DNA of 42,933 nt from a virus. The translations under genes and the position numbers were made by a program. The notes below the pieces were generated by a model that was not told the origin of the DNA, searched no databases, and worked only from the letters and a program-made list of their open reading frames with translations. Location of the stretch: positions 1 to 42,933 of IMG/VR virus record IMGVR_UViG_3300032397_000032; one strand, 5' to 3'. Position 1 is the first letter of the stretch, and each line of letters begins with the position of its first letter. Shown here one piece after another: positions 8,303 to 42,933 of the stretch.

Positions 8303-9555
8303 TGGCTACTACCGACTATTTCTACCCCGATCCGCATACCGAGAACACCAGCGTTGACGGCTATACTGCCAAGAATACAGCGCAGTTTTGGGCCGATCAT
8401 ATCGCGGCGGGTGGTGCTACCGCAAACGATACTTCTGCGGATACTTACTGTGTTCGCATGACATCATCATCAACTACCGACAAATGGCAGCGCCTGGGTA
8501 GGTCTCATTTTCTCTTTGATACTTCCGCGTTGGACAATGCTGCGGTAATTTCGTCGGCTGTGTTCAGTCTGATGGGCAGCGCGAAAGATGATAATATGTC
8601 TCAGTCAATCAGACTGACTTCGACGGCCCCTGCAAAGAATACAGAAATCGCCACAGGGGATCATGTAAATGTAGGCACAGCGGCTTATGCTCCCGATATA
8701 TCCCTTGCTGACTTTGACACTTCTCACTATAACAACTGGACGCTCAATGCCACCCCTGGTATAGCAGCCATTAGTCTCACCGGCATCACCAAACTGGGTA
8801 TCAAGTTATCTGGCGATGCTGACAACATTGAGCCGACATGGGCATCTAACGCCTCGGCCCAGGCGGAATGTCGCTTCGCCGACTACGCCCTCACCACCTC
8901 CGACCCGAAGCTCGCGGTGACGTATACGACAGGGGGCACGGTGTACTACCAAGTCTGCGCTGCCACGATGGCCTGCGTAGCAACGCGCGCCGTCACGGCG
9001 AAGCTCAGCCGCAGCGCCACCATGGCCTGCGTAGCAACGCGAGTCCGCAGCGCCATGACGTTCCACCGCAGCATGTCCGCCACCATGGCCTGTGTGGCTA
9101 CCAAAGCGCGCAAGGTGAGCGTAGCGCGGACTGCCACCACGGCCTGCGTTGCCACCATCGCCCGCAAGATCAGCGTAGTGCGCGCCAGGGCGATGGCCTG
9201 CGTTGCCACCATCGGCAAGGGCGTGAAGCTGACGCGCGCCGTGGCGACGGCCTGCGTGGCTACGGCGAGCGCCATCAACATGGGCGCGGGCGTGCTGTAC
9301 CACGTCACATGCAATGCGGTCATGGCGTGCGTGGCGACGGTGAGCCGCAAGATAAAGCTGAACCGCAGCGTGGCTACGTCCATCATTGCGACGATCAGCC
9401 GCCTGTGGAACCGCAAGGTGAGCGCATTCACTGTTAGCGAAACTGCCCTGCCCGTATACAGCGTCAGTGAATCGCTGCCGGTGTACTCAGTCAGCGAAAC
9501 TGCCCTGCCGGTGTACAGCGTCAGTGAAGTAGTCACGCGCTCAGAGCCCGCCTAA
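8302..9555 (+). CDS. repeat-bearing tail fibre/adhesin with ACVAT repeats
   Basis: A 417-residue protein with a GTG start. Residues 1-210 form a beta-rich jelly-roll-like domain resembling DNRLRE-type domains (WQRLGRSHFLFDTSAL, then SSAVFSLMGSA, closing KLAVTYT). Residues 216-372 are an array of about 18 residues per unit with the core ACVAT at 224, 242, 264, 281, 299, 317 and 342 and a worn copy SIIAT at 360; a basic stretch (RK or KL) follows most cores. Residues 376-409 hold three LPVYSVSE units. GC is clearly lower in the first 600 bases than in the repeats, so the gene looks mosaic. Likely a virion fibre; function inferred. Confidence 0.65.
   Translation: MATTDYFYPDPHTENTSVDGYTAKNTAQFWADHIAAGGATANDTSADTYCVRMTSSSTTDKWQRLGRSHFLFDTSALDNAAVISSAVFSLMGSAKDDNMSQSIRLTSTAPAKNTEIATGDHVNVGTAAYAPDISLADFDTSHYNNWTLNATPGIAAISLTGITKLGIKLSGDADNIEPTWASNASAQAECRFADYALTTSDPKLAVTYTTGGTVYYQVCAATMACVATRAVTAKLSRSATMACVATRVRSAMTFHRSMSATMACVATKARKVSVARTATTACVATIARKISVVRARAMACVATIGKGVKLTRAVATACVATASAINMGAGVLYHVTCNAVMACVATVSRKIKLNRSVATSIIATISRLWNRKVSAFTVSETALPVYSVSESLPVYSVSETALPVYSVSEVVTRSEPA
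8971..9392 (+). repeat. degenerate ~54-bp tandem repeats encoding ACVAT units
   Basis: Seven clear copies and one worn copy of gccTGCGTnGCnACn-type DNA, spaced mostly 51-54 bases with two longer spacings (about 66 and 75). DNA copies are diverged, often at third positions, so the array is old and kept at protein level. A second short array encoding LPVYSVSE lies at 9445-9528 and is nearly identical at DNA level, hence younger. Confidence 0.85.
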
Positions 9556-18048: not shown

Positions 18049-18169
18049 CGCCGTGCGCGTCTGCTATGAACGCGTGCTGGCATGCCTGTGCGAGCTGCGC
18101 GGCTACGGCCTGAGCCGCTGGCACATCGCGCGCACCGTGGCGCTGCTGCTGTGGAGGAAATGTAAATGA
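18041..18169 (+). CDS. small basic Cys-containing protein (42 aa)
   Basis: GTG at 18041 behind GGAGGATCAAGG, overlapping the DUF3310 stop; the stop overlaps the next ATG (ATGA). The 42 residues are basic with four Cys (VCYERVLACLCELRG, and WRKC at the end). The two-sided overlap supports a real gene. No family recognised. Confidence 0.5.
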   Translation: MDSAVRVCYERVLACLCELRGYGLSRWHIARTVALLLWRKCK

Positions 18170-18915
18170 GACGCATCCTGATCGTGCTGCTCCTGCTGCT
18201 GTGCGGCTGTAACGACGGCGGCGGCAACTCATTCCCGTGGAAATCGCAGCCGCACCTTGGCGCAATCCCGCCAGTGATCGGCAAATGGTTCACGCCTAGC
18301 GCCACGCTGGGCTTCGATACGCAGGTGTACCACGCCGCAGGCGATACTACATCCATCCCGCCGTTCGTCGCCGCGTTGGCAGCGCAGAGCGCGCAGCAGG
18401 CCATCGGCGAGGTTATCCCATACTGCAAGGCATTCGGGCTGAGCTTCACGCAGGCGGCGAATCCCACAGTCACGGTGCGTTTCTATTACGGCCCGTGGAA
18501 GGCGCGGACTGCGGCGAGCGCGTTCAGCCTGGCGCTGCCGCCGTTCGCAGACTCGTTGATCGTCAGCAGCAAAACGTCCAGTTCGTATGCCACGCCGCCG
18601 CCCGCCAGCAGCAACTACCTGGGCTGCGCATACGTCAGCGCGCAGGATAAGAATATTCACGGCGCGGTCGTGTGGATTAACGCCTATGTGTGGCAGGATT
18701 TGAAACAGCAGGCGGCGTCGCGTCCTGAGCTGCACATGGACTGGCAAGCCATCGCTGCGCAGTTCGAGAACAGCGTGACGTGGCACGAACTGTTTCACGT
18801 CGTCGGGTTGAACGACGATCCGCTAGGCACAGCGCCGGGGCTGATGGTGTATCGCGCCCGCACGCCGCGCCCGTCGCAAACTGAAGCCGACGTGTGCGCG
18901 TGGCTGTATAAATGA
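18166..18915 (+). CDS. lipoprotein metzincin-like zinc protease
   Basis: A 249-residue protein. Residues 1-15 form a lipoprotein signal with lipobox LCGC (Cys15 as lipidated residue). The motif HELFHVVGLND (His207, Glu208, His211, Gly214, Asp217) matches HExxHxxGxxD, the metzincin pattern in which Asp replaces the third His, as in snapalysin-type enzymes. A Met in GLMVYR (227) could form the Met-turn. A fairly regular strand-rich domain precedes it. A lipid-anchored protease is unusual in a phage: it could alter the host surface, aid superinfection exclusion or be virion-linked. Activity inferred. Confidence 0.7.
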   Translation: MRRILIVLLLLLCGCNDGGGNSFPWKSQPHLGAIPPVIGKWFTPSATLGFDTQVYHAAGDTTSIPPFVAALAAQSAQQAIGEVIPYCKAFGLSFTQAANPTVTVRFYYGPWKARTAASAFSLALPPFADSLIVSSKTSSSYATPPPASSNYLGCAYVSAQDKNIHGAVVWINAYVWQDLKQQAASRPELHMDWQAIAAQFENSVTWHELFHVVGLNDDPLGTAPGLMVYRARTPRPSQTEADVCAWLYK

Positions 18916-19090: not shown

Positions 19091-19297
19091 GTCGGGCTCC
19101 GGCTTGTGCTTCCACTGTGCCTGCGCCGCCAGCAGCGTCCGTTCGTAGTATTCGCGGCTGCTGTCCGCCACGCGCGCTCCCGCCTCTAACAGCCGCACCC
19201 AGTTGTATGACTTGCCGCAGAGCGCGGCGGCGCTGGCCTGGGAGAGGCCGAGCGCCAGCCGCAGTTCGCGGAGTTGCTGCGCGGTGAGGTTAGGCAC
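19085..19297 (-). CDS. small XRE-type HTH protein
   Basis: A 70-residue protein with a GTG start at 19297 preceded by AAGGAG and AGGAGAG on the minus strand; an upstream in-frame start at 19348 has poorer support. Residues 5-45 form a helix-turn-helix: LTAQQLRELRLALGLSQASAAALCGKSYNWVRLLEAG reads as an XRE/Cro domain (given here only in outline by its LRELRLALGLSQ start and VRLLEAG end). It may control the lysogeny operon or excision. Last gene of the leftward operon. Confidence 0.7.
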   Translation of the reverse strand: MPNLTAQQLRELRLALGLSQASAAALCGKSYNWVRLLEAGARVADSSREYYERTLLAAQAQWKHKPEPDA

Positions 19298-19523
19298 GCG
19301 GGTCTCTCCTGATCTCCTTGCGCCGTGACTGCTCGGCGAGCACGTCAATCGAGTTCAGTTGCTCGGCGCACTCGGCTGCATCCTCACGGGCCTGGTCGCC
19401 AGCACCCGGCACTAAGGGATCGTATTCGAAGTGCTTGGCGATTGCGCCAGTGCCGGTATGCTCCACTATAAAGCACCCGTCCCGCCAGCGATTGCGGACG
19501 GCTATCCATTTCTCTACTGCCAC
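19290..19523 (-). CDS. small unknown protein of lysogeny operon
   Basis: A 77-residue protein with a GTG start behind GGAGGTGTGAA. Starts MAVEKWIAVRNRWRDGCFIVE, includes an acidic middle (GAGDQAREDAAECAEQL) and a basic end (SRRKEIRRDPRA). Its stop overlaps the next gene by eight bases. The start region is nearly identical to those of the genes at 19826 and 23169. No family recognised. Confidence 0.55.
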   Translation of the reverse strand: MAVEKWIAVRNRWRDGCFIVEHTGTGAIAKHFEYDPLVPGAGDQAREDAAECAEQLNSIDVLAEQSRRKEIRRDPRA

Positions 19524-19607
19524 TTCACACCTCCGCTCCGGCGCTTTGCCGCGCCCGCGAGCTATTCATCGCCGCGCACCGTGCCCGCGCGGCTGGGCTG
19601 TCTCGTG

Positions 19608-19826
19608 CTAGCTCTCAACGCAGGCCGCGTGTACAGACCGCCCGTCGGACTCAATGTAGAAGCGCGTCTCATAGCCGACGGGAAATCCGCAGACGTGACA
19701 CAGCGCCGCCGCCCGGGCCCGATTGAGGGCGCAGTCCGTATGGCCGCACTGCTCGTTCAAGCACGGCCCGATCTCCTCACCCCGGAAGTTTTTAGCCCCC
19801 GGACTCGGCATGGTTCCTGCTGCCAA
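19608..19826 (-). CDS. small zinc-binding protein
   Basis: A 72-residue protein. A TTG start at 19826 is chosen because a strong CGGAGGTG lies just upstream; the ATG at 19862 would place that site inside the gene. Cys/His residues are arranged CLNEQCGHTDC, then CHVCG, then HAAC near the end, giving enough ligands for one or two zinc sites. Lies behind an extended -10 promoter (19853-19858). Function unknown. Confidence 0.55.
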   Translation of the reverse strand: MAAGTMPSPGAKNFRGEEIGPCLNEQCGHTDCALNRARAAALCHVCGFPVGYETRFYIESDGRSVHAACVES

Positions 19827-19852
19827 ATTACACCTCCGTTTCAAGATGTTAA

Positions 19853-19876
19853 AGTATAACATAGCGTTAGCGCTAT
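19853..19876 (-). promoter_or_regulatory. extended -10 promoter with inverted-repeat operator
   Basis: On the minus strand TATGTTATACT contains an extended -10 (TGTTATACT, -10 at 19853-19858); no good -35 is present. Immediately upstream an inverted repeat, ATAGCG-TTAG-CGCTAT (19861-19876), would overlap the polymerase site and includes TTAGCGC, like the elements in the repressor/cro region. Suggests repressor or HTH control of the leftward small-gene operon. Confidence 0.45.
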
Positions 19877-19877
19877 T

Positions 19878-19921
19878 GGGTTAAGCGCGGGTTAAATCCG
19901 CGTTAAGCTCTGGTTAAACGT
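19878..19921. repeat. four 11-bp iterons (GTTAA core) at 3' end of integrase
   Basis: GTTAA occurs at 19880, 19891, 19902 and 19913, exactly 11 bp apart; units are GGGTTAAGCGC, GGGTTAAATCC, GCGTTAAGCTC and TGGTTAAACGT. The last units overlap the integrase stop codon and final codons. Spacing of one helical turn suits cooperative protein binding on one DNA face. Could be a binding array for an HTH protein or directionality factor, or part of the phage attachment site. Confidence 0.65.
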
Positions 19922-21423
19922 GGCATGTATTTAACACTCGCGTAGACTGGGATGTTATTTCCGCCGCTGCTCAGTACGTCGCGCAGCACGAGCCGCAGGC
20001 CGTCACGGCGCACGTCAACCTGCTTCAGCACTCCCGCTATCAGCGCCCGCAGCTCGCGCCGCCTGCCCTGCTCCCATGCTGCCGCAATCAGGTTCACGCG
20101 CTCGGCTGTAGACGATGTGTCTACGATTGTAGACTGCGCGTCCACAGCCGCCGCTTCCAACTCCGCTGCCAGCCGCTCCGCTTCGCGCCGTGCTGCGCCT
20201 GCTGCCGCGTCCAACGCTCTAATCGCCTCCCCCGCCTCACTGTCCAGCGCCTTCAGCAGCCGCGCTTGCGCGCGTTTGTGCGCAGCCTGCGCCCTGCTGT
20301 GCTGCTTGCGCAGCGCTGCCACGCGCGCCCGCGCCTGCGTGAGTAGCGCGTCCGCACCCGCCCGCGCGCGCACGTACAGCTCGCCGGACTGACACAATTC
20401 AATAAGTGTAGGTATTACTATCCCTTCCAACTCGGCGGCGTCCAGTGCGCGCGGCATGTCGCCTGGATCGTCAACCGCTTCAATGGTGTAGTAGGGATGC
20501 GTGCGTTCATCGTAGCGCCGGTACACGCCGCGCCCGCGTGACGACTGTCCCCTGTATGTCACGCTCTGGCCTGCTTTGCCCGGCGGCGCGGTATAGCGCC
20601 AGTGCGAACATACTACCAGCCCTTGCAGCAGGTGAATGTAGCCGCTCGGCCTGCCGCGCCCGCCGCTGCGCTGCGCCGCCTGCCACAGTTCAGCAGGTAC
20701 CATGCAGTCATGCTCGGCGTGCGCCACGGTTGCGCCTTCGTGCACGATCTCGCCGAGATACCAGCGGCAGCGCACGATGCTGCTGACGCTGCTTTGCCAC
20801 CAACAGCCGCCGTTGACCGTCGGCACGTTGCGCGCGCGCAGGCTGGCGGCGATGTGAACCAGCGGCTCACCGGCAGCGACGCGGCGAAATATCTCAAGCA
20901 GGATCGGGTACGTCTCAGGATCACGGCAGCGCCCGCCGTTGCCATCCGCCATGCTGCCGAACGGACGCCCGCTCACCTGTATGCCACGGCTGCGCTTCAG
21001 CCGGTTGGTGGCGCGCAGCTTTTCGCTGGATTGCTCGACGGTGTATTGGTAGCTGCTCAGCAGCACGCTCAGCAGAAAGCGCCCGCTGGCCGTGGTCGTA
21101 TCAAACCCGCCGTCAACGGTGCTGACGTCAGCGCCGCGCGCCTGTATTTCATCGCGCAGAAACTTGGTGAACTCCGTAGTGCGCGCGATACGATCCAGCG
21201 TCGCCGCCACGAGCACCTGCGCTGCGCCACCATGCAGCAACGCGACCGCCGCCTGAAAGCCAGCACGATCCAGCCGCGTGCCGCTCAGCGTATCAGTGTA
21301 CTCGGCGGCAACTTCCCAGCCCTTTGCGGCGCAGTACTGGCGGCAGCGCTCTAGCTGCGTCGGGATGGACGTGGCCTGCTCCTCGGACTCAGTGCTGACG
21401 CGCGCATACAGGACGGCGCGCAC
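19903..21423 (-). CDS. large serine recombinase (integrase)
   Basis: A 506-residue protein. The N-terminal resolvase domain has the nucleophile Ser10 in YARVST, Asp77-Arg78 and Arg81 in LDRIAR, and a GGFDTTTASGRFLLSVL stretch. The recombinase domain follows (from about 140), then a region where the zinc ribbon should be and a long coiled coil (about 345-440). The zinc-ribbon site is unusual: GLVVCSHW has one Cys where a CxxC pair is expected, with no clear second pair. GTG start overlaps the stop of the upstream gene by one base. It would catalyse integration at attP, likely nearby. Confidence 0.9.
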   Translation of the reverse strand: MRAVLYARVSTESEEQATSIPTQLERCRQYCAAKGWEVAAEYTDTLSGTRLDRAGFQAAVALLHGGAAQVLVAATLDRIARTTEFTKFLRDEIQARGADVSTVDGGFDTTTASGRFLLSVLLSSYQYTVEQSSEKLRATNRLKRSRGIQVSGRPFGSMADGNGGRCRDPETYPILLEIFRRVAAGEPLVHIAASLRARNVPTVNGGCWWQSSVSSIVRCRWYLGEIVHEGATVAHAEHDCMVPAELWQAAQRSGGRGRPSGYIHLLQGLVVCSHWRYTAPPGKAGQSVTYRGQSSRGRGVYRRYDERTHPYYTIEAVDDPGDMPRALDAAELEGIVIPTLIELCQSGELYVRARAGADALLTQARARVAALRKQHSRAQAAHKRAQARLLKALDSEAGEAIRALDAAAGAARREAERLAAELEAAAVDAQSTIVDTSSTAERVNLIAAAWEQGRRRELRALIAGVLKQVDVRRDGLRLVLRDVLSSGGNNIPVYASVKYMPRLTRA

Positions 21424-23129: not shown

Positions 23130-23168
23130 CGGACGGCTGCGTTTAGCCCGCATGCTAGGAGGTGTGAA

Positions 23169-23369
23169 GTGGATACAGACTACAGCAAGTTCACCGATGA
23201 TGAACTGGCGGAGCTGCTGGCGAAGGCCCAGAAAGACAGTGACGCGCTTTACGAAACTCAGCGCGCGGCAAACGCAGACTACTGGAATCACATGTGCAAG
23301 ACCATCGTTGCTCTGCGCAACGAAGTCATGGTGCGCGCGGCAATCAAAGCCCGCACGGTGGCAGCGTGA
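23169..23369 (+). CDS. small helical early protein (66 aa)
   Basis: GTG start behind a very strong AGGAGGTGTGAA. A charged helical protein (FTDDELAELLAKAQKDSDAL then RNEVMVRAAIKAR). The last codons overlap the next GTG. Its start region matches that of the minus-strand gene at 19523. Function unknown. Confidence 0.6.
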   Translation: MDTDYSKFTDDELAELLAKAQKDSDALYETQRAANADYWNHMCKTIVALRNEVMVRAAIKARTVAA

Positions 23370-24372: not shown

Positions 24373-24627
24373 ATGACTAACACGAAACGCGCACCTGCGC
24401 GCACAGCGGAGCAGCGCATCGCCGAGATTGATGCCATGCAGCGCAGGGTGCTGACGCGCAAGCTCGCGGCGGCGGAACGCAAAGAGGCTCGGCTAGATGA
24501 GGCGGCGACGAAGGCGTTGGGAGCCTCCAACATGATGCGAGCAAAGCTAAGTGATGCTGCTACAGAGCGCGCCCGCTACGCCGCGCAGCTCGCCGCGCTG
24601 GACGCAAAGGAGCGCGGCGATGGGTAA
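24373..24627 (+). CDS. coiled-coil early protein (84 aa)
   Basis: A helical, charged protein with heptad-like stretches (EQRIAEIDAMQRRVL, AAAERKEARLDEAATKAL, AAQLAALDAKE). Strong AAGGAG ribosome site (24362-24366). It overlaps the RecT-like gene by eight bases, so translation is probably coupled and a partner role in recombination is possible. Function unknown. Confidence 0.6.
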   Translation: MTNTKRAPARTAEQRIAEIDAMQRRVLTRKLAAAERKEARLDEAATKALGASNMMRAKLSDAATERARYAAQLAALDAKERGDG

Positions 24628-25492
24628 CGAGCTTGCCATCATCCCCGTGTCCGACATGCAGATCATGGCCCGCGCCGTTGTTACCAGCGGGCTATGGGGA
24701 ATCAAGACCGAAGCTCAGGCACTCGCGCTGATGCTGGTCGCGCAGGCCGAGGGGCTGCACCCTGCTACCGCCGCCCGTGACTACAACATCATTCAGGGCC
24801 GTCCCGCGCTGAAGGCGGACGCGATGCTGGCGCGCTTCCAGGCGGCGGGCGGCGTAGTGGAATGGCAGGAAATGACGGATAGCCGCGTCGCTGGCATGTT
24901 CTCCCATCCGCACAGTTGCCCCAAGCCAGTGCTGATTGACTGGGATATGCAGCGTGCGCGGCAGGCGCAGCTCGGCGGCAAAGAGATGTGGAGCAAATAC
25001 CCGCGCCAGATGCTACGCGCGCGGGTGATTAGCGAGGGAATCCGCGCGGTATACCCAGGCGCAGTCAGCGGGGTGTACACGCCGGAGGAAGTTGCCGACT
25101 TCACGGTTGAAGAACAGCCGCAGCCAGCCGCTACATACACGCTAGACCGGCCCAGCGAGCCCACCGGCGAGGTTTACGCCCCCGCGCCGGTACTCGTGCG
25201 CTGCCAGGTGAAGTCCGTTGTAGAACGCACATCACGCGCTGGCAACCCGTACCGCGATGTAACCATGACAACCGAACTCGGCGGCAGCGACCATTACCTG
25301 TACTTCAGCAAGACGATCAGCGCCGGATTCACCGGCCCGCTGGACTGCGAACTCGGCATGACGGACAAAGGCAAGCCGGTGATTCAACACGCACACCTGC
25401 CGAAGGTTGACGCGCCGCCCGCTGACGACGGCGACATGCAGCCGCCGCAAGACTACCTGCCACTGAGCGAAAGCCTCAGTAAGGGAGACTGA
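24620..25492 (+). CDS. RecT-like single-strand annealing protein
   Basis: A 290-residue protein from ATG 24620 (AAAGGAG upstream). Conserved stretches: ALALMLVAQAEGLHPATAAR near 30-50, YNIIQGRPALKADAMLARFQ near 52-71, KYPRQMLRARVISEGIRAVYP near 128-148 and GVYTPEEVADF. This is the pattern of the RecT-family annealing proteins. The C-terminal 110 residues are a separate acidic, Pro-rich part. No partner exonuclease gene was recognised nearby. It would anneal DNA for recombination-linked replication and concatemer formation. Confidence 0.75.
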   Translation: MGNELAIIPVSDMQIMARAVVTSGLWGIKTEAQALALMLVAQAEGLHPATAARDYNIIQGRPALKADAMLARFQAAGGVVEWQEMTDSRVAGMFSHPHSCPKPVLIDWDMQRARQAQLGGKEMWSKYPRQMLRARVISEGIRAVYPGAVSGVYTPEEVADFTVEEQPQPAATYTLDRPSEPTGEVYAPAPVLVRCQVKSVVERTSRAGNPYRDVTMTTELGGSDHYLYFSKTISAGFTGPLDCELGMTDKGKPVIQHAHLPKVDAPPADDGDMQPPQDYLPLSESLSKGD

Positions 25493-25493
25493 C

Positions 25494-25751
25494 ATGCTGA
25501 CCACCGACACCGCCGCTGCTGCGCTTGAAGCGCGTGCGGCAGAGGACGAAGCGATAACGCACGGTTGTCCTGAGTATGAGGCTCCGTTCGTAGGCACGAT
25601 GCGCCGCGCCCTTGCCCACGCGCTACGCAACGGCGGCGGGTGCTGCGACGGCCACGTTTACGGCCCCGCGCCGTGCTGCATCTGCCACGGCCGCGGGCTA
25701 GACCCCGAAGCGCTGCGCCTGCTGGCCGCGCTGGGGGTGCGGGATGAGTAG
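25494..25751 (+). CDS. small Cys-rich early protein (85 aa)
   Basis: Begins two bases after the RecT-like stop. A helical N-terminal half is followed by a Cys cluster GGGCCDGHVYGPAPCCICHGRG that looks like a DnaJ-type zinc knuckle (CxxCHGRG). C-terminus helical (EALRLLAALGVRDE). Possibly a nucleic-acid or protein-binding zinc module. Family unknown. Confidence 0.6.
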   Translation: MLTTDTAAAALEARAAEDEAITHGCPEYEAPFVGTMRRALAHALRNGGGCCDGHVYGPAPCCICHGRGLDPEALRLLAALGVRDE

Positions 25752-26109
25752 CAAGACCACCGACACCGCTGCACTGCACACCGCCGCGCTTGCCGCGCTG
25801 GATGCGGCACAGCGCATCGAAGCGGAGGATTGCCCCGGCTGCGAAGATCGTGACTGCACATACCGGGTTGCGTGGGCGCGCCAACGCGCCATGCTGCCCG
25901 CCCTGCTGTCCGGCCTGCGCGCGGACATCGAGCGCTATCACGCAGTATGGATAACCGCGCAGGATTACCAGCAGAGTTATATCCGCGAACAAAGTGCGCT
26001 GTCTCACCGCACGCACTGCGCCACGCTGCTCGCCGCGATAAGCAGCACGCCCGCGCTCGCCGCAGAGGCGGCTGCGCTGCGCACGGCGCTAGAGGTGCAA
26101 GGTGAGTAG
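25744..26109 (+). CDS. early helical protein with CxxC...C cluster
   Basis: A 121-residue protein whose ATG overlaps the previous stop by eight bases. N-terminal DTAALHTAALAALDAAQRIE resembles the start of the preceding protein (DTAAAALEA). Cys at DCPGCEDRDC (30-38) may bind zinc. The rest is helical. The similarity of N-termini suggests a shared origin with the gene at 25494. Function unknown. Confidence 0.6.
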   Translation: MSSKTTDTAALHTAALAALDAAQRIEAEDCPGCEDRDCTYRVAWARQRAMLPALLSGLRADIERYHAVWITAQDYQQSYIREQSALSHRTHCATLLAAISSTPALAAEAAALRTALEVQGE

Positions 26110-26299
26110 ACGCAAGTACCCGCGCTTTGTTGTGGATGTCGGCCACCTCTGGTCTGATGTTGAAATCATGGACGTTGACGGTGATAAATCATTCATCATC
26201 GGATATGCGGGCCGTGGAGCGAAAACAGTAGCCCGCGCGCTGGCCCGCGATCTCAACGCAGTGCTCGACAAGCACGAGGAGGCCCGCGATGGCAAGTAG
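26102..26299 (+). CDS. small early protein (65 aa)
   Basis: GTG start overlapping the previous gene by eight bases. Starts MSRRKYPRFVVDVGHLWSDV, then an Asp-rich turn and a helix (KTVARALARDLNAVLDKHEE). Small alpha-beta protein, no recognised family. The stop lies beyond the next start (11-base overlap). Confidence 0.55.
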   Translation: MSRRKYPRFVVDVGHLWSDVEIMDVDGDKSFIIGYAGRGAKTVARALARDLNAVLDKHEEARDGK

Positions 26300-26537
26300 C
26301 ATCGGCCCGCACGGCGTCTGTCCCTTCTGCAACGGCGGCAAGGGCAAGGCATATAACTGCCTTGACTGTCCAACTGGGTTCGTGCCGTGTGAACGCTGCC
26401 ACGGCACTGGCTACGCCTGCCCCGGCGGGCCGGTGCGCACCGCAGTCTACACAGACAACGGCGAGTTTCACGGCTTGCTGTACATCTGCGCCACCTGCCA
26501 CAGCATCGTACCCGACAGCGAGGTGAATCATGGATAG
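26289..26537 (+). CDS. DnaJ-type zinc-finger protein (82 aa)
   Basis: ATG behind GAGGAGG. Three or four zinc ligand pairs: GVCPFCNGGKGK, CLDCPTG, PCERCHGTGYACP and ICATCHS. The CxxCxGxG repeats mark the DnaJ-like cysteine-rich fold found in small phage and bacterial proteins. The exact function is unknown; protein or RNA binding is possible. Confidence 0.65.
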   Translation: MASSIGPHGVCPFCNGGKGKAYNCLDCPTGFVPCERCHGTGYACPGGPVRTAVYTDNGEFHGLLYICATCHSIVPDSEVNHG

Positions 26538-26739
26538 CGAGTACCACCGCTACACGACGTGGGAGCTACGCGACATGCCCGATACTTGCGTGCTGCAAGC
26601 CGTTGGATTGTGGGAGTACACTCCATTATACCGAGACAAACTCGGCGTTCGCACATGGACAGAGACTGTATCGTTTCGCAGCTACAGGTCTCGCCCGTCC
26701 TGTTACGTCGCGCGCCTGCTGCTGCGGAGGATCGCGTGA
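26530..26739 (+). CDS. small early protein (69 aa)
   Basis: ATG behind GCGAGGTGAATC, a start region repeated almost exactly before the gene at 32346. Protein is rich in Trp, Tyr, Arg (TTWELRDMPDTCVLQAVGLW, then VARLLLRRIA). No family recognised. The stop overlaps the next GTG. Confidence 0.5.
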   Translation: MDSEYHRYTTWELRDMPDTCVLQAVGLWEYTPLYRDKLGVRTWTETVSFRSYRSRPSCYVARLLLRRIA

Positions 26740-26933
26740 GCACCCGCTATCGCCCCTCCACGCCCACCGAATCTGTCGAGCTATACAGCATGGAGCTGGA
26801 GGATGCCGAGCGCGACCCCGATGTGCAATACAACCACTGCGCCGTGTGCCGCTGTGAGCTGGAATACGACGCCGACGATCAGGAATACTGCGCGGCCCAC
26901 AAGCCGCAGGAGGATGAAGATGAGCAAAGCTGA
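26736..26933 (+). CDS. small acidic Cys-pair protein (65 aa)
   Basis: GTG at 26736 in a GTGA overlap, behind GCGGAGG. Acidic protein with CAVCRCELE and YCAAHK giving a possible single zinc site, and a very acidic tail (QEDEDEQS). A longer in-frame reading lies inside the previous gene. Function unknown. Confidence 0.55.
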   Translation: MSTRYRPSTPTESVELYSMELEDAERDPDVQYNHCAVCRCELEYDADDQEYCAAHKPQEDEDEQS

Positions 26934-27693
26934 CAGGCGTCAGTTGATTGACCGGCTGACCTGGTGGGCGTTTTCGCAGGGGTTCGATCCGCTGCGCGAG
27001 TACCCGATCCCGCCCCCCGTAGCGGACATGTTCGCGGTGCCGCGATACCCCACGGCGCATTCCACAGTATTATCCCAAACCGCCGCTGAGGATAATAACG
27101 CCACGGCTGTTGCGCCGCAGGATAATAAGCCCTATGCATGGGCGGACGGCGTTGACATCACGGGCGGGCTGGTGGAGTGCTGCAACCCGGACGGCGACAT
27201 TCACGCGACGGGCATTGTCAGTGACTATCGGGTCGGTGACGATTCGCTGTGCATTTACAACGGCGGCGGCTGGGCGCTGTGGATGTGCCGCCCCGCGCCG
27301 CGCGACTTCGCCGTGGGCGACCGCGTGCGCGTCGTCAGCACGGCAGCGACGAATAATCGAGGATGCGGCGTGACTGGCAGCATGAAGGCTCTGCTTGGCA
27401 CGACGGCCACCATCACATTCACCGGGATCACTGGCGAACCCTGGGTTGCACTAGATCACGATATTCTGTACTGGCACCCCGACGACCTGCTCTACATCCC
27501 GCCCGCCACGCTCGATACCCCCGCCCCAACTTCGTCCGTTTCCGACGACGTTGCGCCCTACCCGTTGCGCGCCGAGTACGAGCGCCTGCGCGCTGATCTG
27601 GACAGAGCGAAGGAATTGCTACGGAAGGCGCGGGCCGCAATGATCGAATCGCGCGACCTACTGGACTCCCTTGCGGAGCCGCCCGATGCGTAA
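26920..27693 (+). CDS. unknown early protein with SH3-like barrel
   Basis: A 257-residue protein from ATG 26920 behind CAGGAGGATGAAG. Residues 1-50 are helical (RRQLIDRLTWWAFSQGFDPL). Residues 78-128 are strand-rich with two Cys (ECC). Residues 130-192 resemble an SH3-like or KOW-like barrel: AVGDRVRVVST, then MKALLGTTATITF and a closing YWHPDDLLYI. Residues 210-250 form a coiled coil. It could bind nucleic acid or protein. Family unknown. Confidence 0.55.
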   Translation: MSKADRRQLIDRLTWWAFSQGFDPLREYPIPPPVADMFAVPRYPTAHSTVLSQTAAEDNNATAVAPQDNKPYAWADGVDITGGLVECCNPDGDIHATGIVSDYRVGDDSLCIYNGGGWALWMCRPAPRDFAVGDRVRVVSTAATNNRGCGVTGSMKALLGTTATITFTGITGEPWVALDHDILYWHPDDLLYIPPATLDTPAPTSSVSDDVAPYPLRAEYERLRADLDRAKELLRKARAAMIESRDLLDSLAEPPDA

Positions 27694-27937
27694 CCTCGCC
27701 GCAACGCTGACGCTGCAAGCCTACGCGGCCATCATGTGCGGGGATGCGCGGGCCGGAGATGTTCGTTTTCGTGGTCTCACGAAAATGTATGGAAACGGCG
27801 GGCAGCTCGCGTTGCCGCTAAACGATACTGCGGGCGATACCCGCACAGGGCGGGCCGTCAATCCGCTACGGGCGGATCACGTCAAGGACGGCCTGCCCGC
27901 TAACTTCATCGACACCATAGGAGCGCCCCATGCCTAG
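27686..27937 (+). CDS. small early protein (83 aa)
   Basis: ATG 27686 overlaps the previous stop by eight bases. MRNLAATLTLQAYAAIMCGD at the start, then a Gly/Asp-rich, probably extended middle (GGQLALPLNDTAGDTRTG). No family recognised. Confidence 0.5.
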   Translation: MRNLAATLTLQAYAAIMCGDARAGDVRFRGLTKMYGNGGQLALPLNDTAGDTRTGRAVNPLRADHVKDGLPANFIDTIGAPHA

Positions 27938-28124
27938 CATCATCCACGACGCCGCGCGCGGGACTGCGCAGCAAATCCCCGCGCCCGAACTGCCGCTGAC
28001 ATACATCGAATCGTCAGACATCGCCGCCATCGCCGCCCTAGCGCGCGAGATCGTCAACGCGACGAAAGGCACTGTGCGCAGAAAGGCGATGAAGATCGTA
28101 GAACTATCGGAGGCGAAGCCATGA
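27930..28124 (+). CDS. small early protein (64 aa)
   Basis: ATG behind AGGAGCGCCCC, overlapping the previous stop by eight bases. The first bases CCCCATGCCTAGCA recur at the start of the gene at 31758. N-terminus extended, C-terminus helical and basic (AALAREIVNATKGTVRRKAMK). Function unknown. Confidence 0.5.
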   Translation: MPSIIHDAARGTAQQIPAPELPLTYIESSDIAAIAALAREIVNATKGTVRRKAMKIVELSEAKP

Positions 28125-28249
28125 CCACCCTCACCTGGAACGCCATCCTCTACGCCGACGCGACCGGCCTGCATGTCGCCGACACCGCGCCGTTGCGGCT
28201 CGCCTTGCAGCGCCACGACGCACTGCGTGCGTGGGCGGAGGCGCGCTAG
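28121..28249 (+). CDS. small early protein (42 aa)
   Basis: ATG in an ATGA overlap with the previous gene behind CGGAGGCGAAGCC; the stop shares a base with the next GTG. 42 residues: strand-like start (MTTLTWNAILYADATGLHVA) and helical end (RLALQRHDALRAWAEAR). Tight two-sided coupling supports it as a gene. No family recognised. Confidence 0.5.
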   Translation: MTTLTWNAILYADATGLHVADTAPLRLALQRHDALRAWAEAR

Positions 28250-29037
28250 TGGCACTGCGGCGGTACGTCAGGCTGGCACGCGACATCTGGGGATGCCCCA
28301 AGCTCCGCAAGCTGCCCCTGCTGGCACGCATCGTGTACGTCTACCTGCTGGACTTCCCCCACGAGACGCTGACGGGGATCGTGCTGTGGGACATGGACGA
28401 GTTTCACTACCACTTCCCCTACCCTGAGTGGAATGACGCCGCCGTGGAGAAGGCGCTGGCCGTGCTGGAACAGGCCGGTCACATCGCCAGAGACAACGGC
28501 TGCATCTGGCTAAAGCAGTACACCAGCGAGCAATGCTTTCGCGGAGACAACATCGCGCGCGGAATTTCGGCAGAATTAGAGAGAATGTCGCCTAAATGCG
28601 GGAGGCTAGTGCTGGCCTACTCTGAGGTATACCCCTTCAAGCAGCTTAAAGGGGCTTCTTACAGGAAAGGTACAGGTACAGGTACAGGGAAGGTTAAGAG
28701 TACGGATTCTAAGAAGAATCCGACGCCAAAGTCGAAACGACTTCGGCCTGCGCTCAAACCGCTGTCAGAACTGGAATCAGAGCTTAACCCCGACTGCGCG
28801 ATAGCCTGGCAGAACTTCAAGGCGATGGTTGCCAGCCACAACAGCACCGGCACCGTGGCGGATACCCGTCTCGCCGCCATGCTGGATCGCATGATCACCG
28901 CCGCCTGCGCCGAGCAACTATCCAACGAGCAGATGAACCACGGCCTGCACGCGGCAATCACCGCCAGCGGCGGGAAGGGCGCACCAAACACGAACTACGT
29001 CTTGGCCGCAGCGCGCGGCTATGAGGAACGGGCGTGA
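28249..29037 (+). CDS. replication initiator / replisome organiser-like protein
   Basis: A 262-residue protein starting at GTG 28249 (TAGTG overlap). Residues 1-90 form a winged-helix region of the phage replisome-organiser type (ARIVYVYLLDFPHETLTGIV, then EKALAVLEQAGHI). Residues 130-165 are a Lys/Thr/Ser-rich linker (GTGTGTGKVKSTDSKK) encoded by repeat- and hairpin-rich DNA. Residues 175-262 are a second helical domain (FKAMVASHNSTGTVAD, NYVLAAARGYEE). This two-domain plan with the origin inside the gene matches lambda O-type initiators. No helicase loader gene follows. Confidence 0.65.
   Translation: MALRRYVRLARDIWGCPKLRKLPLLARIVYVYLLDFPHETLTGIVLWDMDEFHYHFPYPEWNDAAVEKALAVLEQAGHIARDNGCIWLKQYTSEQCFRGDNIARGISAELERMSPKCGRLVLAYSEVYPFKQLKGASYRKGTGTGTGKVKSTDSKKNPTPKSKRLRPALKPLSELESELNPDCAIAWQNFKAMVASHNSTGTVADTRLAAMLDRMITAACAEQLSNEQMNHGLHAAITASGGKGAPNTNYVLAAARGYEERA
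28669..28743. other. candidate replication origin: direct repeats plus two hairpins
   Basis: Three tandem GGTACA units (28669-28686) are followed by an 8-bp stem CGGATTCT/AGAATCCG with loop AAGA (28703-28722) and a 6-bp stem AAGTCG/CGACTT with loop AAA (28729-28743). The stretch encodes the low-complexity linker of the initiator and is lower in GC than its surroundings. Origin role inferred by analogy to initiator genes that carry their own origin. Confidence 0.5.
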
Positions 29038-29540
29038 GACGCAAGGCAGGGAAGCTGATTCAGGGGAACTACTTATACCTGTCGCTGGTTTGCAGCGAGA
29101 CCGGCACGGTGTCATGGAAAGTTGGCGTTACATCAAACCTTAACGAACGAGCGTTTGCGCTGCACGCACTCGTTACATTCACGATCAAGTATTACGACAT
29201 TCAGGATTCATGGGCTGATGAGTCTTGGATACTTTGGAGATTGGCAGAGGACGGGATGAGACGTTACATTCCGGGTTTGGGCATTGAGTGCATTATAGAC
29301 GGCGCAGAACAGGCCGCTATGGAATTGTTCATAGAGGTTGCGGCTGATGGTTACGCCACCGGCAAGATCGACAGAATGAACAGATGGACAAAGGTTCTGC
29401 CGGAAACTTATGTTGGAATCTGCACGGAGGACGAGTACATCTTCAAGTGCCTTGAGGATGAACATCAACTGATCAACGAGCACATGCTAACGGATATGTT
29501 CTATGACTGGCAGGATCGACATGAACGAGTCATCAACTAG
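29034..29540 (+). CDS. GIY-YIG / T5orf172-like protein (putative)
   Basis: A 168-residue protein with GTG start overlapping the initiator stop. YLYLSLVCSETGTVSWKVGV, then TSNLNERAFAL resembles the opening of T5orf172/MUG113-type GIY-YIG domains (KvGiT.n...R...L). A Glu is present (ADESWILWRL), but the rest is poorly matched. GC is clearly lower than its neighbours, so the gene looks recently acquired. If functional, it could be a small nuclease. Moderate to low confidence in family. Confidence 0.45.
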   Translation: MRRKAGKLIQGNYLYLSLVCSETGTVSWKVGVTSNLNERAFALHALVTFTIKYYDIQDSWADESWILWRLAEDGMRRYIPGLGIECIIDGAEQAAMELFIEVAADGYATGKIDRMNRWTKVLPETYVGICTEDEYIFKCLEDEHQLINEHMLTDMFYDWQDRHERVIN

Positions 29541-29549
29541 GAGATTGAA

Positions 29550-29933
29550 TTGACCCACGGCAACCCCACGGCATACACCCCGGACGGCACGGCATACTTC
29601 TCCGATGGCGCAGTGTGCCGCGCCCGCGACTGGCTGGCCTATGAGCAGGGGCGCGACGACGAACCCTGCTACCACCTGCCGCGATTCACCCGCGAGCAGG
29701 CTGTGGCAATCATCAAGGCGTGGAACCCTGAAACCACCAAGCTCACGCCGATGTATGACCCGCCGCTGTGGATACCCGACGCCGAGGATTGGGCCTGCGG
29801 CGCGGCGCTGTTCGATCTCGCGCTGGATCACGTCAGACTCGCCGACGAGCAGGCCCAGGCGAAGGCGGCGGAATACAACCTGCCCGACAAGGCAAAGCGC
29901 GGCTTCGCCCGTCAGCGCGAGGTGGCGGAATGA
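29550..29933 (+). CDS. unknown early protein (127 aa)
   Basis: TTG start behind AGGAGATTGAA. An acidic protein with Trp/Tyr-rich N-terminal part (YEQGRDDEPCYHLPRFTREQ) and a long C-terminal helix (HVRLADEQAQAKAAEYNLPD). Stop overlaps the small ORF at 29930 (ATGA). No family recognised. Confidence 0.5.
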   Translation: MTHGNPTAYTPDGTAYFSDGAVCRARDWLAYEQGRDDEPCYHLPRFTREQAVAIIKAWNPETTKLTPMYDPPLWIPDAEDWACGAALFDLALDHVRLADEQAQAKAAEYNLPDKAKRGFARQREVAE

Positions 29934-30016
29934 GCCTGCCCGCTGCAACCCGCGCCCGCACAGCGCAGCGCGGCCTGTTCACCGCCACAACAAAGGAGCT
30001 ACACGATGGCGCGTAA
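29930..30016 (+). CDS. 28-aa peptide with QRGLFTAT motif, copy 1
   Basis: ATG in an ATGA overlap, stop inside the start of the next gene. Encodes TAQRGLFTATTKELHDGA after a short lead (Gln13, Leu16, Phe17). A close relative is encoded at 30898-30969, also before a gene start. QxxLF resembles the beta-clamp-binding pentapeptide. The repeat also carries the AAAGGAG ribosome site of the next gene, so the DNA, not the peptide, may be what is kept. Confidence 0.4.
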   Translation: MSLPAATRARTAQRGLFTATTKELHDGA

Positions 30017-30908
30017 CAGCGCGATTGAATGGACAGAGCACACTTGGAATCCCGTCACGGGCTGCACCAAGATCAGCGAGGGCTGCAAGCATTGCTACGC
30101 GGAGGCGATGACGCGGCGCTTCTGGCGGCAGTGGGGATGCGAGCCGCCGCCGGAGCACTTCAAGGTGAAGCTGCACCCGGAGCGGCTGCTGGAACCGCTG
30201 CACTGGCGCAAGCCCAGCCGCATCTTCGTCTGCTCGATGAGCGACCTGTTCCACGCGAAAGTTCCCAGCGACTTCATAGATCAGGTCTGGGCCGTCATGG
30301 GGGCATGTCCACAACACACGTTCCAGGTGCTAACGAAGCGTCCTAACCAGATGCTCGGCTATATAAACGGCCAGAGCAGCGGCCGATTAGTAGATGCGAT
30401 CTTTAGACTACGCGACCTGGGTGCCAACCCTAAACAACTGGCGACGTTCCATGACGCGGCCTGGCCGCTGCCGAACCTCTGGCTCGGCGTCACGGCGGAG
30501 AATCAGGCGCGCTTCGATGAACGCTGGGAGTACCTGCGCCAGACGCCCGCCGCCGTCTATTTCATCAGCAATGAGCCCGGCCTCGGCCCGCTGATCCTGC
30601 CCGCCGACTTCCTGGCACGCGGCAAGCGGGCACAGGTGATCGTCGGCGGCGAGACCGGCCCTGGCGCGCGCCCGATGCACCCCGCCTGGGTGCGTAGCCT
30701 GCGCGATCAGTGCCAGGCCGCCGGGGTGCCGTTCTTCTTCAAGGGCTGGGGCGACTGGGCGCCCGAGTACCCGCAGGGCATCAATCTCACCAACGTCGAG
30801 GAGCGTTTCATCGACGGCCAGCACTACTGGCGCGTCGGCAAGAAGCGCGCGGGCTGCCTGCTAGACGGCGTCGAGTACCACGAGTACCCAGGGGCCCATG
30901 ATGCTTGA
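30006..30908 (+). CDS. DUF5131 / phage Gp37-Gp68 family protein
   Basis: A 300-residue protein with the family signature TEHTWNPVTGCTKISEGCKH followed by CYAE, giving Cys20, Cys27 and Cys30 (CX6CX2C). Other conserved parts: FVCSMSDLFH, HTFQVLTKRP, LWLGVTAENQ, VIVGGETGPGARPM and FFFKGWGDW. The Cys set and barrel-like strand pattern suggest a relation to radical SAM enzymes, but function is not established. Frequent in phages as a single accessory gene. Starts behind the AAAGGAG inside the small ORF. Confidence 0.85.
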   Translation: MARNSAIEWTEHTWNPVTGCTKISEGCKHCYAEAMTRRFWRQWGCEPPPEHFKVKLHPERLLEPLHWRKPSRIFVCSMSDLFHAKVPSDFIDQVWAVMGACPQHTFQVLTKRPNQMLGYINGQSSGRLVDAIFRLRDLGANPKQLATFHDAAWPLPNLWLGVTAENQARFDERWEYLRQTPAAVYFISNEPGLGPLILPADFLARGKRAQVIVGGETGPGARPMHPAWVRSLRDQCQAAGVPFFFKGWGDWAPEYPQGINLTNVEERFIDGQHYWRVGKKRAGCLLDGVEYHEYPGAHDA

Positions 30909-30969
30909 CACAGCACAGCGCGGGCTGTTCACCGCCACAGAGGCAAAGGAGATGCACGATGAGCTATGA
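30898..30969 (+). CDS. 23-aa peptide with QRGLFTAT motif, copy 2
   Basis: ATG at 30898 overlaps the DUF5131 stop and the ORF ends eight bases into the next gene. Encodes MMLDTAQRGLFTATEAKEMH and three more residues. Matches copy 1 over about 15 residues, with QRGLFTAT identical. Same arrangement: overlaps the upstream stop and contains the AAAGGAG for the next gene. Confidence 0.4.
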   Translation: MMLDTAQRGLFTATEAKEMHDEL

Positions 30970-31207
30970 GTTTCGCCGCCAGTGCGAAGCGATACGCCGC
31001 CATGCGCGCCAGCAGGGGCACGTCCTTGGCCGATTCAAGAACATGCACGAGGCGTTGAACTGCGCCGAATGCGACGAGTGCGGCGAGGTGGTCTGCAAAC
31101 TCTGTGGCGCTAAAGCCAACGTGCGTTGCGCCCCAGGCGAAGAACCCCTACTGGCAATCTCACAACGATTCATGCAGAAATGCGAGGAGGCCCACGATGG
31201 ACGCTAA
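30959..31207 (+). CDS. small zinc-finger early protein (82 aa)
   Basis: ATG 30959 behind AAAGGAGATGCACG. Basic N-terminus (EFRRQCEAIRRHARQQ), then CAECDECGEVVCKLCGA giving two CxxC pairs. The C-terminal part is helical (LLAISQRFMQKCEEAH). Possibly DNA or RNA binding. Stop overlaps the next gene by 11 bases. Confidence 0.55.
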   Translation: MSYEFRRQCEAIRRHARQQGHVLGRFKNMHEALNCAECDECGEVVCKLCGAKANVRCAPGEEPLLAISQRFMQKCEEAHDGR

Positions 31208-31538
31208 CACGATGCTCGCCGCGATCACGGCGGCGCTACCACCCACAGGCCGCTATCACTACGAGAAGGCCAATCAGCACTTCTACCCTGATCTATGGGG
31301 CGTGTGGAATGAGTACCAGGAGGAGCTGATGTTCCTCGCGGACAGCGAGCCGCACGCCCGCCTGCTCGCCGCGATGCTGAACGCCGCAGGGCCGATGTGC
31401 GAGGCGGCGGCGGAAATGCACATCTGGGGCGAGGATGATCCCGTGTATACGCGCGGGTTGCGGGACGCCGTCGCCACCCTGCTCACGCCGCTGTACGACG
31501 CGCTGGTGGCGGCAGGCGCGATTGCGGAGGTGGCATGA
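31197..31538 (+). CDS. unknown early protein (113 aa)
   Basis: ATG behind GAGGAGGCCCACG, a start region matching the one at 26289. Acidic and helical, with a strand motif in the middle (FYPDLWGVWNEYQEELMFLA, ARLLAAMLNAAGPMCEAAAE). Reads like small phage Ead/Ea22-type proteins with DPHARLLAA patterns; this family call is weak. Stop overlaps the next ATG. Confidence 0.5.
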   Translation: MDANTMLAAITAALPPTGRYHYEKANQHFYPDLWGVWNEYQEELMFLADSEPHARLLAAMLNAAGPMCEAAAEMHIWGEDDPVYTRGLRDAVATLLTPLYDALVAAGAIAEVA

Positions 31539-31765
31539 TGGGCGAAGTGCGTAATTGCAAACGCTGCGGCCTGCGACTGGGCGATGGATCGGGCGACTAC
31601 TGCCCTAGCTGCGAACTGAGTTATTCGCTGGTAGCCGTCCCGCGTCGATGGGTGCGCCCGTGGGCATGGCGACTTTTCAAGTCCTGCACTTGCCGCCCCT
31701 TTCCGCTGTGGCGCATCGGCAGATGGATTCTAACTATACCAGTCACGGAGGCTCCCCATGCCTAG
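31535..31765 (+). CDS. small zinc-ribbon early protein (76 aa)
   Basis: Two adjacent ATGs (31535, 31538) behind GGAGG. N-terminal zinc ribbon (NCKRCGLRLGDGSGDYCPSC) followed by a basic, Trp-rich stretch (RRWVRPWAWRLF). Could interact with membrane or nucleic acid. Function unknown. Confidence 0.55.
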   Translation: MMGEVRNCKRCGLRLGDGSGDYCPSCELSYSLVAVPRRWVRPWAWRLFKSCTCRPFPLWRIGRWILTIPVTEAPHA

Positions 31766-31997
31766 CACCGCAGAGCGCGTCGCCGTCGCGCGGCGCTGGA
31801 TCGCAGAGCAGGTTCACGACGAGGAATCGCTGTTCGACCCCGACCTGCTGACCCGCGCCCTGCTGCTGATCGCGGACGACCATCTCGCCAAGACGGCGTT
31901 AGATCACAGCCTCAGCGCCAAGTTGAACTTGGATTACATCCTCTCCATCCTCGCGCCATACATCCCAGAACTGAAGGAGCACAGCGATGAGCGATGA
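31758..31997 (+). CDS. small helical early protein (79 aa)
   Basis: ATG behind GGAGGCTCCCC, overlapping the previous gene. Fully helical and acidic (ERVAVARRWIAEQVHDEESL, DLLTRALLLIADDHLAK). No family recognised. Start bases CCCCATGCCTAGCA are shared with 27930. Confidence 0.5.
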   Translation: MPSTAERVAVARRWIAEQVHDEESLFDPDLLTRALLLIADDHLAKTALDHSLSAKLNLDYILSILAPYIPELKEHSDER

Positions 31998-32148
31998 ACT
32001 GATCGAGTTTACCTGCACTGAGCGCTTGGTGTTGGCGAACTTCACGCCCGATTGGCTGCGGCGCGGAATCATCATGCCCGATCCCGACCTGCGCCGCCCC
32101 GACGGCCTGCATCTAACCCGCTACCACGAGGAGCACAGCGATGACTGA
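31987..32148 (+). CDS. small early protein (53 aa)
   Basis: ATG behind AGGAGCACAGCG, overlapping the previous gene by 11 bases; stop overlaps the next gene by eight. Sequence MSDELIEFTCTERLVLANFT leads into a basic centre and acidic end. The same 16-base start region is found at 32129-32144. Confidence 0.5.
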   Translation: MSDELIEFTCTERLVLANFTPDWLRRGIIMPDPDLRRPDGLHLTRYHEEHSDD

Positions 32149-32353
32149 CACAGCGACACTGGCCGAGCTGCTGGCGGCTATCAGCCCGCCGTTGCACTGG
32201 GAAGGAGACGAGTTGTGGGGCGAAAACGCCAAATGGTGTTTCAACGACAGCGAGGAACTAACCAATGCCCTGCAAACACTACTCGCCGCCATGCCCGCGC
32301 TGCTGTCCGACCTGGACGCACTGCGCGGCGACAGCGAGGTGAAACATGGCTAA
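32141..32353 (+). CDS. small early protein (70 aa)
   Basis: ATG behind AGGAGCACAGCG (repeat of the site at 31987). Acidic, helical, with a Trp/Asn-rich middle (LHWEGDELWGENAKWCFNDS). Overlaps the next ATG by eight bases. Function unknown. Confidence 0.5.
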   Translation: MTDTATLAELLAAISPPLHWEGDELWGENAKWCFNDSEELTNALQTLLAAMPALLSDLDALRGDSEVKHG

Positions 32354-32561
32354 GTACGCGCTGCAATGCGCCGACTGTCGCAACTGGACGCTGGTAGACG
32401 ACATTCAGCGCCGCACCTGCGACTACTGCTGCGACGTGCGCCAGGCCGAAGCCCGCCGCCGGTACAAGGATGCACAGCCCGGCACGCAGGCGCAGCGCTG
32501 CCGCGTCGCACTGGCCTATGCGCACGCCGTAGCGGCAGAGCTACGCAGGGGCGCGGCATGA
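32346..32561 (+). CDS. small zinc-finger early protein (71 aa)
   Basis: ATG behind GCGAGGTGAAAC. CADCRNWTLV and TCDYCCDVRQ supply two CxxC pairs, followed by a basic helix (AEARRRYKDA) and a long helix. Looks like a small nucleic-acid-binding module. Stop overlaps the next ATG (ATGA). Confidence 0.55.
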   Translation: MAKYALQCADCRNWTLVDDIQRRTCDYCCDVRQAEARRRYKDAQPGTQAQRCRVALAYAHAVAAELRRGAA

Positions 32562-42763: not shown

Positions 42764-42933
42764 GCACGAAAACCGCAGGCGCGTACTTCACATCGCTGTG
42801 GTTTGGCGATGAATGGAAAGCCGCCATGCGTGAAGCGGGCAAAGAGGCGCTTGCTGAAAACGCCGCCAACATCGTGCGCTCCGCCATGCAGAACATCACC
42901 AATGACGGCAGTATCTTCACCGGCACGCTGCGC
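42760..42933 (+). CDS. HK97 gp10-like protein (5' part, continues at position 128 of the circle)
   Basis: GTG 42760 overlaps the stopper gene stop (GTGA). It gives 22 residues (STKTAGAYFTSLWFGDEWKA and so on) before the ATG equivalent to position 20. From 42807 it repeats the window start. Joined through the repeat, the gene encodes 221 residues ending at 619. Confidence 0.75.
   Translation, partial: MSTKTAGAYFTSLWFGDEWKAAMREAGKEALAENAANIVRSAMQNITNDGSIFTGTLR
42807..42933. repeat. terminal direct repeat, right copy
   Basis: Identical to 1-127. Shows that the two window ends are the same locus and that the molecule was assembled as a circle. Confidence 0.95.

Follow-up and report, generated by a model that had tools for sequence, protein, structure and literature searches.

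Shared start-junction sequences among the early genes of a phage encoding a RecT-like protein

Introduction

Short conserved sequences at gene boundaries have been described in several groups of phages. Those of the cluster K mycobacteriophages, the start-associated sequences (SAS), consist of a 13 bp motif that is present in many copies and conserved between related phages, and about half of them have 17 bp inverted repeats upstream (extended SAS, or ESAS); they were reported in 2011, with no function known, and a role as regulatory signals was suggested for them (PMC3203893). In the classical model of phage recombination, short conserved boundary sequences separate the modules (PMC3029335, PMC3233612), and in the cluster I mycobacteriophages a gene that is absent from Brujita, Island3 gene 68, is bracketed by a repeat of ~50-60 bp (PMC3029335). 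Here we analyse the virus record IMGVR_UViG_3300032397_000032 over its whole length of 42,933 bases (the window), in which nearly identical sequences recur at the starts of small early genes. We confirm that the boundaries of these genes are shared beyond what chance and codon constraint account for; the observation is real.

The start junctions resemble the cluster K SAS and the motifs of the Microbacterium cluster EF phages (PMC7302621), being short conserved stretches at the ribosome site of unrelated, non-structural genes in one orientation, but where cluster K has one 13 bp motif there are several smaller sets here, and they overlap the preceding gene. As in the lambdoid boundary-sequence model, letters are shared at boundaries that flank unrelated genes and are proposed targets of recombination, although that model compares different phages, whereas the repeats described here are short and lie within one genome. 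In the lambda nin region, too, small early genes are closely packed and overlap at stop and start; it has been described as a chain of interlinked genes with 4 nt ATGA overlaps (Kroger and Hobom, 1982, as cited in PMC8022706); compared with that cited description, overlaps of 8 and 11 nt are the commonest here.

Results and Discussion

The early operon

The window encodes terminase and portal genes, and its ends (1-127 and 42807-42933) form a perfect direct repeat of 127 bp. This points to a genome that is probably complete and was assembled as a circle. About 28 small early genes, most of them without a family match, form a rightward operon at 24.0-33.2 kb, and the genes bearing the shared junctions belong to the same operon as recT:

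24620-25492, plus strand: RecT-like single-strand annealing protein gene, a candidate recombinase (PHROG 561, E 6e-15; Pfam RecT, E 1.6e-5)

In an unusual pattern, stop and start overlap by 8, 11 or 14 nt at 16 of 28 junctions, which places the two genes in one relative frame. In that frame the letters of the Shine-Dalgarno site read KE or EE and those of the start read D-G or D-E, and the resulting tails of the upstream proteins include EEARDGK, EEAHDGR, KELHDGA, KEMHDEL, KEHSDER, EEHSDD, DSEVNHG and DSEVKHG.

Junctions shared between unrelated genes

The initial annotation had listed pairs of near-identical sequences spanning the ribosome site and first codons, and every one was present where it had been placed when checked base by base. 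Four of the pairs are:

26275-26292, plus strand: junction module, start of gene 26289-26537; 17/18 identical to 31183-31200; encodes upstream-gene tail EEARDGK-stop
31183-31200, plus strand: junction module, start of gene 31197-31538; partner of 26275-26292; upstream-gene tail EEAHDGR-stop
26513-26533, plus strand: junction sequence, start of gene 26530-26739; 20/21 identical to 32329-32349; upstream-gene tail DSEVNHG-stop
32329-32349, plus strand: junction sequence, start of gene 32346-32561; partner of 26513-26533; tail DSEVKHG-stop
27926-27939, plus strand: junction sequence, start of gene 27930-28124; 14/14 identical to 31754-31767; upstream-gene tail GAPHA-stop
31754-31767, plus strand: junction sequence, start of gene 31758-31997; partner of 27926-27939; upstream-gene tail EAPHA-stop
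31974-31990, plus strand: junction module, start of gene 31987-32148; 31975-31990 is 16/16 identical to 32129-32144
32128-32144, plus strand: junction module, start of gene 32141-32353; 32129-32144 is 16/16 identical to 31975-31990

The second pair had been given as 26514-26533/32330-32349 (19/20) and gains one position on the left. Within the pairs the longest exact runs are 11-16 bp; beyond each repeat identity is only 7-11/30, so that the edges at the junctions are sharp. When ungapped repeats are ranked across the window, 29959/30909, 26513/32329, 31975/32129 and 26275/31183 stand high; paralogous late genes and internal tandem repeats are interspersed with them and also rank above them.

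That the genes behind the pairs are unrelated was borne out by BLASTP for each pair except that of two mini-ORFs, described below, which are related; by the same within-pair comparisons, shared boundaries here flank differing genes. Paralogy as a source of the pairs was ruled out by BLASTP, though three small genes (25744-26109, 31197-31538 and 32141-32353) have common short internal segments (LLAAI/LLAAM, PALLxxLxAL). The DNA at 25895-25917 and 32292-32314 is 21/23 identical.

A further set of matches had been proposed at 19.5, 19.8 and 23.2 kb. These are present (19517-19535 and 19820-19838 match at 16/19, with 23159-23173 on the other strand), but they are ordinary, comprising three GGAGGTG extended Shine-Dalgarno sites before GTG or TTG starts:

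19517-19535, minus strand: extended Shine-Dalgarno site GGAGGTGTGAAGTGG before the start of gene 19290-19523
19820-19838, minus strand: extended Shine-Dalgarno site GGAGGTGTAATTTGG before a TTG start within ORF 19608-19862
23159-23173, plus strand: extended Shine-Dalgarno site GAGGTGTGAAGTGG before the GTG at 23169

This trio is mostly extended Shine-Dalgarno sequence and requires no special explanation.

Matching at starts exceeds chance and codon constraint

Since chance matches of 14-15 nt are common genome-wide, and a lone 14/14 match is expected many times, though not in register at starts, the test has to be made at starts. We compared 30 early starts in register over a window of -25 to +15 (score +1/-2, cut-off at least 14). 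Four pairs reached the cut-off, with scores of 18, 16, 15 and 14, and in the comparison with shuffled controls that the initial annotation had proposed this lies above nearly all of the nulls: the expected number is 0.02 under column permutation, 0.28 under a position-specific order-1 Markov model and 0.01 for random ATG/GTG sites of the same region.

Convergent translational constraint offers a different account, in which Shine-Dalgarno sites at a fixed spacing, the 8 or 11 nt overlap and biased codons yield the same letters without any copying. The trio at 19.5, 19.8 and 23.2 kb is clearly of this kind, and the tails EEARDGK-stop, EEAHDGR-stop, KELHDGA-stop and KEHSDER-stop follow from reading AAGGAG or GAGGAG as KE or EE and GAT-G as D. 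Codon-matched starts do not, however, match at the observed level. A codon-block permutation, which permutes whole codons among genes at each position and so asks whether frame constraint explains the matches, expects 0.33 pairs against the four observed (P=0.0003), and with two-codon blocks 0.5-0.7 are expected (P=0.001). The feature is moreover missing from phages of similar composition: with one automatic gene caller applied to all loci, a single pair of 5,006 scored at least 14 in the 29 control loci with GC of at least 55%, against 4/496 in this early region. All 92 control loci of any composition gave 19/16,347, confined to 10 loci, and matching in register at starts is therefore uncommon, yet not unique to this phage. 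We regard convergence as a somewhat unlikely source of the pairs.

One junction module occurs in seven copies

Seven starts (24607, 26276, 29993, 30946, 31184, 31974 and 32128) fit the module RAGGAG-N4-RCGATGR (RAGGAGNNNNRCGATGR), and all seven of its occurrences in the window lie at starts of this operon. Shuffles lead one to expect 0.02 occurrences and a position-specific Markov model 0.44, with 0/3000 runs reaching seven, and none of 451 control starts fits, which also counts against convergence. One copy, found by the pattern search and absent from the initial annotation, is at recT itself:

24607-24623, plus strand: junction module RAGGAGNNNNRCGATGR at the recT start (24620)

Within two pairs the four free positions agree (GCCC in one, CACA in the other), and this suggests copying rather than convergence on a single optimum.

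As in the SAS, the starts of unrelated genes thus carry a conserved motif that extends beyond a plain Shine-Dalgarno site (7/7, against 0/451 in controls). Its seven copies, and a bias of position and strand like that in cluster K (PMC3203893) and Microbacterium cluster EF (PMC7302621), would suit a regulatory signal, the junctions being sites on mRNA or DNA at which an early-gene regulator from the phage or the host would bind. This seems highly improbable, for the module is scarcely more than a Shine-Dalgarno site and a start codon and several early genes are without it. An ESAS-type inverted repeat was not seen among the longest inverted repeats listed for the window, although no dedicated search was made, and no early start window matches the 13 bp SAS consensus GGGATAGGAGCCC (PMC3203893) when read by eye. 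The junction set of the window works like a start-associated sequence, but because the consensus is unmatched and no relative was found that shows conservation we do not file it in the cluster K family.

A duplicated mini-ORF brackets the DUF5131 gene

The strongest pair is a duplicated repeat of ~50 bp within two mini-ORFs, on either side of a gene for a DUF5131 protein:

29930-30016, plus strand: predicted mini-ORF 1, 28 aa (MSLPAATRARTAQRGLFTATTKELHDGA); coupled to the preceding gene by a 4 nt overlap; overlaps the DUF5131 start by 11 nt
29959-30009, plus strand: upstream ~50 bp repeat copy, containing a junction module; ends at the DUF5131 start codon
30006-30908, plus strand: DUF5131 (PF07505) gene, likely gained, with bracketing repeat; Pfam E 1.2e-90
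30909-30962, plus strand: downstream repeat copy, containing a junction module; starts 1 nt past the DUF5131 stop
30898-30969, plus strand: predicted mini-ORF 2, 23 aa (MMLDTAQRGLFTATEAKEMHDEL); 11 nt overlap with the end of DUF5131 and likewise with the following start; matches mini-ORF 1 (BLASTP E 5e-5)

The repeat had been reported as 29960-30008/30910-30961; it is present, but needs a 3 nt gap, and its ungapped core (29959-29989/30909-30939) is 29/31 identical. Both mini-ORFs encode TAQRGLFTAT-(T/EA)-KE-(L/M)-HD. The two differences in the ten-codon core are synonymous, and the copies differ in length by one codon (3 nt); this may fit a translated peptide, though the evidence is thin. A reading of QRGLF as a clamp-binding segment was considered and is not claimed. 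No relatives of the mini-ORFs were found in phages; a degenerate DNA pattern gave no matches, and a shorter one two chance-like matches. The repeat reaches ~35 bp upstream of the ribosome site, which is difficult to attribute to convergent constraint.

The DUF5131 gene is thus exactly bracketed by direct repeats at its ends (score 25), and the related loci offer nothing comparable: at 29 other DUF5131 genes no bracketing repeat scored above 12. The arrangement resembles that of Island3 genes 67/68 compared with Brujita, where a gene bracketed by a repeat of ~50-60 bp that ends at the junctions is read as recombinational gain or loss. In that case, however, a close relative is known that has only one copy, whereas no such relative was found here, and the Island3 repeat is the shared C-terminus of two larger genes, whereas here it is a mini-ORF. 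From the placement of the repeats, the bracket is likely to be the footprint of a gene gained (or pending loss) between short repeats, and the clearest such event in the operon. Foreign composition was considered as a mark of recent gain and gave no support, the GC3 of 0.83 lying inside the range of the neighbours. The DUF5131 protein also matches the PADLOC candidate-defence models PDC-M41B (E 4e-80) and PDC-M30B (E 3e-77).

Start-associated sequences in other phages with related RecT proteins

Searches of viral contigs, phages and bacterial genomes turned up no syntenic relative that shares these early genes. A megablast search of 20000-42933 against phages gave no match; the terminase had no match in viral contigs and only ~25% matches in phages; and the 758 aa gene 11819-14095 had none in phages. 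Pattern matches were obtained for the gene at 28249 and the capsid gene in viral contigs and for the portal gene in genomes, none of them a confirmed relative. Among the fetched loci, which include 80 viral and 7 bacterial loci brought in by alignment of RecT, the only clear counterparts of window genes are recT, the DUF5131 gene and the integrase gene. The window encodes a serine recombinase:

19903-21423, minus strand: serine recombinase gene

In seven viral contigs among these RecT-related loci, all uncultivated phages (L077, L084, L086, L096, L115, L108 and L059), the sequence GGAGTCNGTGAC-(N)-ATG adjoins starts at 22/22 sites, all on the recT strand. The GGAGTCNGTGAC genes occupy a slot of variable content to the left of recT, seen in five contigs with conserved anchors on both sides. 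Blocks of DNA homology among these phages start or end at the motif in 18 of 72 cases against 6.6 expected, 13 of them on both sides, although this follows in part from conservation of the motif, since alignments run through it. The L096 region had no DNA match in the phage collection. The window has no clear GGAGTCNGTGAC site, the closest having two mismatches, and the motif is therefore not common to this phage. The phenomenon is thus found again, in another sequence, among phages whose RecT is related. Other RecT phages (L087, L100, L101, L070, L111, L122 and L132) have a further start sequence in common, CAAGGAGAAGAAC, before ATG or GTG.

Origin of the shared junctions

We propose that the repeats are start-associated junction modules of a translationally coupled early-gene operon, in which genes were gained or duplicated together with their junctions and the copies were kept by translation; we give this a probability of about one half. 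Each junction would unite a Shine-Dalgarno site, a spacer and a start codon with the last codons of the preceding gene in an overlapping frame. Gain or duplication of a gene with its junction would leave unrelated genes carrying copies of one junction, and the copies would be retained because they are still able to initiate and couple translation. The DUF5131 gene, between two ~50 bp mini-ORF junction copies, may likewise reflect gain or pending loss through recombination between short repeats. The excess over controls, the sharp edges and the exact bracketing of DUF5131 are direct observations, and copying with translational upkeep best accounts for the pairs, the edges and the bracket. The hypervariable early slot of the RecT-related phages, with homology blocks ending at its start-associated sequences, also speaks for it. 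We infer that the similarity arose by copying, not by convergence, and is maintained by translation; each gene has probably spread together with its start signal.

Several points weigh against this proposal. The main reservation is that position-specific order-2 resampling reproduces the pair count (P=0.25), as convergence would predict, although such resampling is fitted to 30 sequences and largely re-issues the data. The overlaps at 16/28 junctions fix one frame relation and restrict the codons over the Shine-Dalgarno site. The RAGGAGNNNNRCGATGR consensus was chosen post hoc, after the data had been seen, and there are just two to seven copies per motif. Finally, no related phage was found that would make gene gain directly visible.

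The initial annotation went further, reading the junctions as an active cassette system in which the RecT-like protein recombines genes between phages at shared boundaries. This is only partly supported. In its favour are boundaries shared beyond chance and with sharp edges, recT in the same operon and itself starting with a junction module, a repeat bracketing DUF5131 and, in RecT-related phages, a hypervariable slot marked by a start-associated sequence at which blocks of homology end more often than expected. The exact runs of 11-16 bp are nevertheless below the reported minimum pairing length of 23-27 bp for Red-beta, a figure that may not hold for this RecT, and a phi80 recombination region with a longest run of 11 bp recombined at a frequency below 1e-8 (PMC3945230); we therefore doubt that RecT anneals efficiently at these junctions. 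No gene-order variation can be observed for this phage, and the block ends elsewhere are partly a consequence of motif conservation. We consider active swapping by RecT very unlikely. Each junction holds the Shine-Dalgarno site, spacer and start together with the end of the gene before, so that selection for translation cannot be told apart here from homology used in recombination.

Other features of the window

Three further genes stand out. Gene 29034-29540 has a GC content of 49% and a GC3 of 0.60, far below its surroundings of 62% GC, with no Pfam match. At 18166-18915 is a predicted secreted protein or lipoprotein with HELFHVVGLNDD, a metalloprotease-like zinc motif recognized by eye. Gene 8302-9555 contains degenerate tandem repeats (MACVAT units) and a 36 bp near-perfect repeat at 9436/9493.

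Implications

It has long been asked how phages acquire small genes while keeping translation intact. In this phage a single stretch at the gene boundary holds the ribosome site, the start codon, the end of the gene before it and, in one case, what is likely the scar of gene gain. A broader proposal, which we hold to be clearly unlikely as it stands, is that start-associated sequences serve as homology handles, the early genes of RecT phages moving as cassettes of ribosome site, start and gene that join in frame with the preceding gene, with each lineage having its own handle; if so, any incoming gene would be translated at once. The RecT-related phages with GGAGTCNGTGAC, in which a hypervariable slot lies between conserved anchors, provide a comparative system for separating recombination from translation as the explanation.

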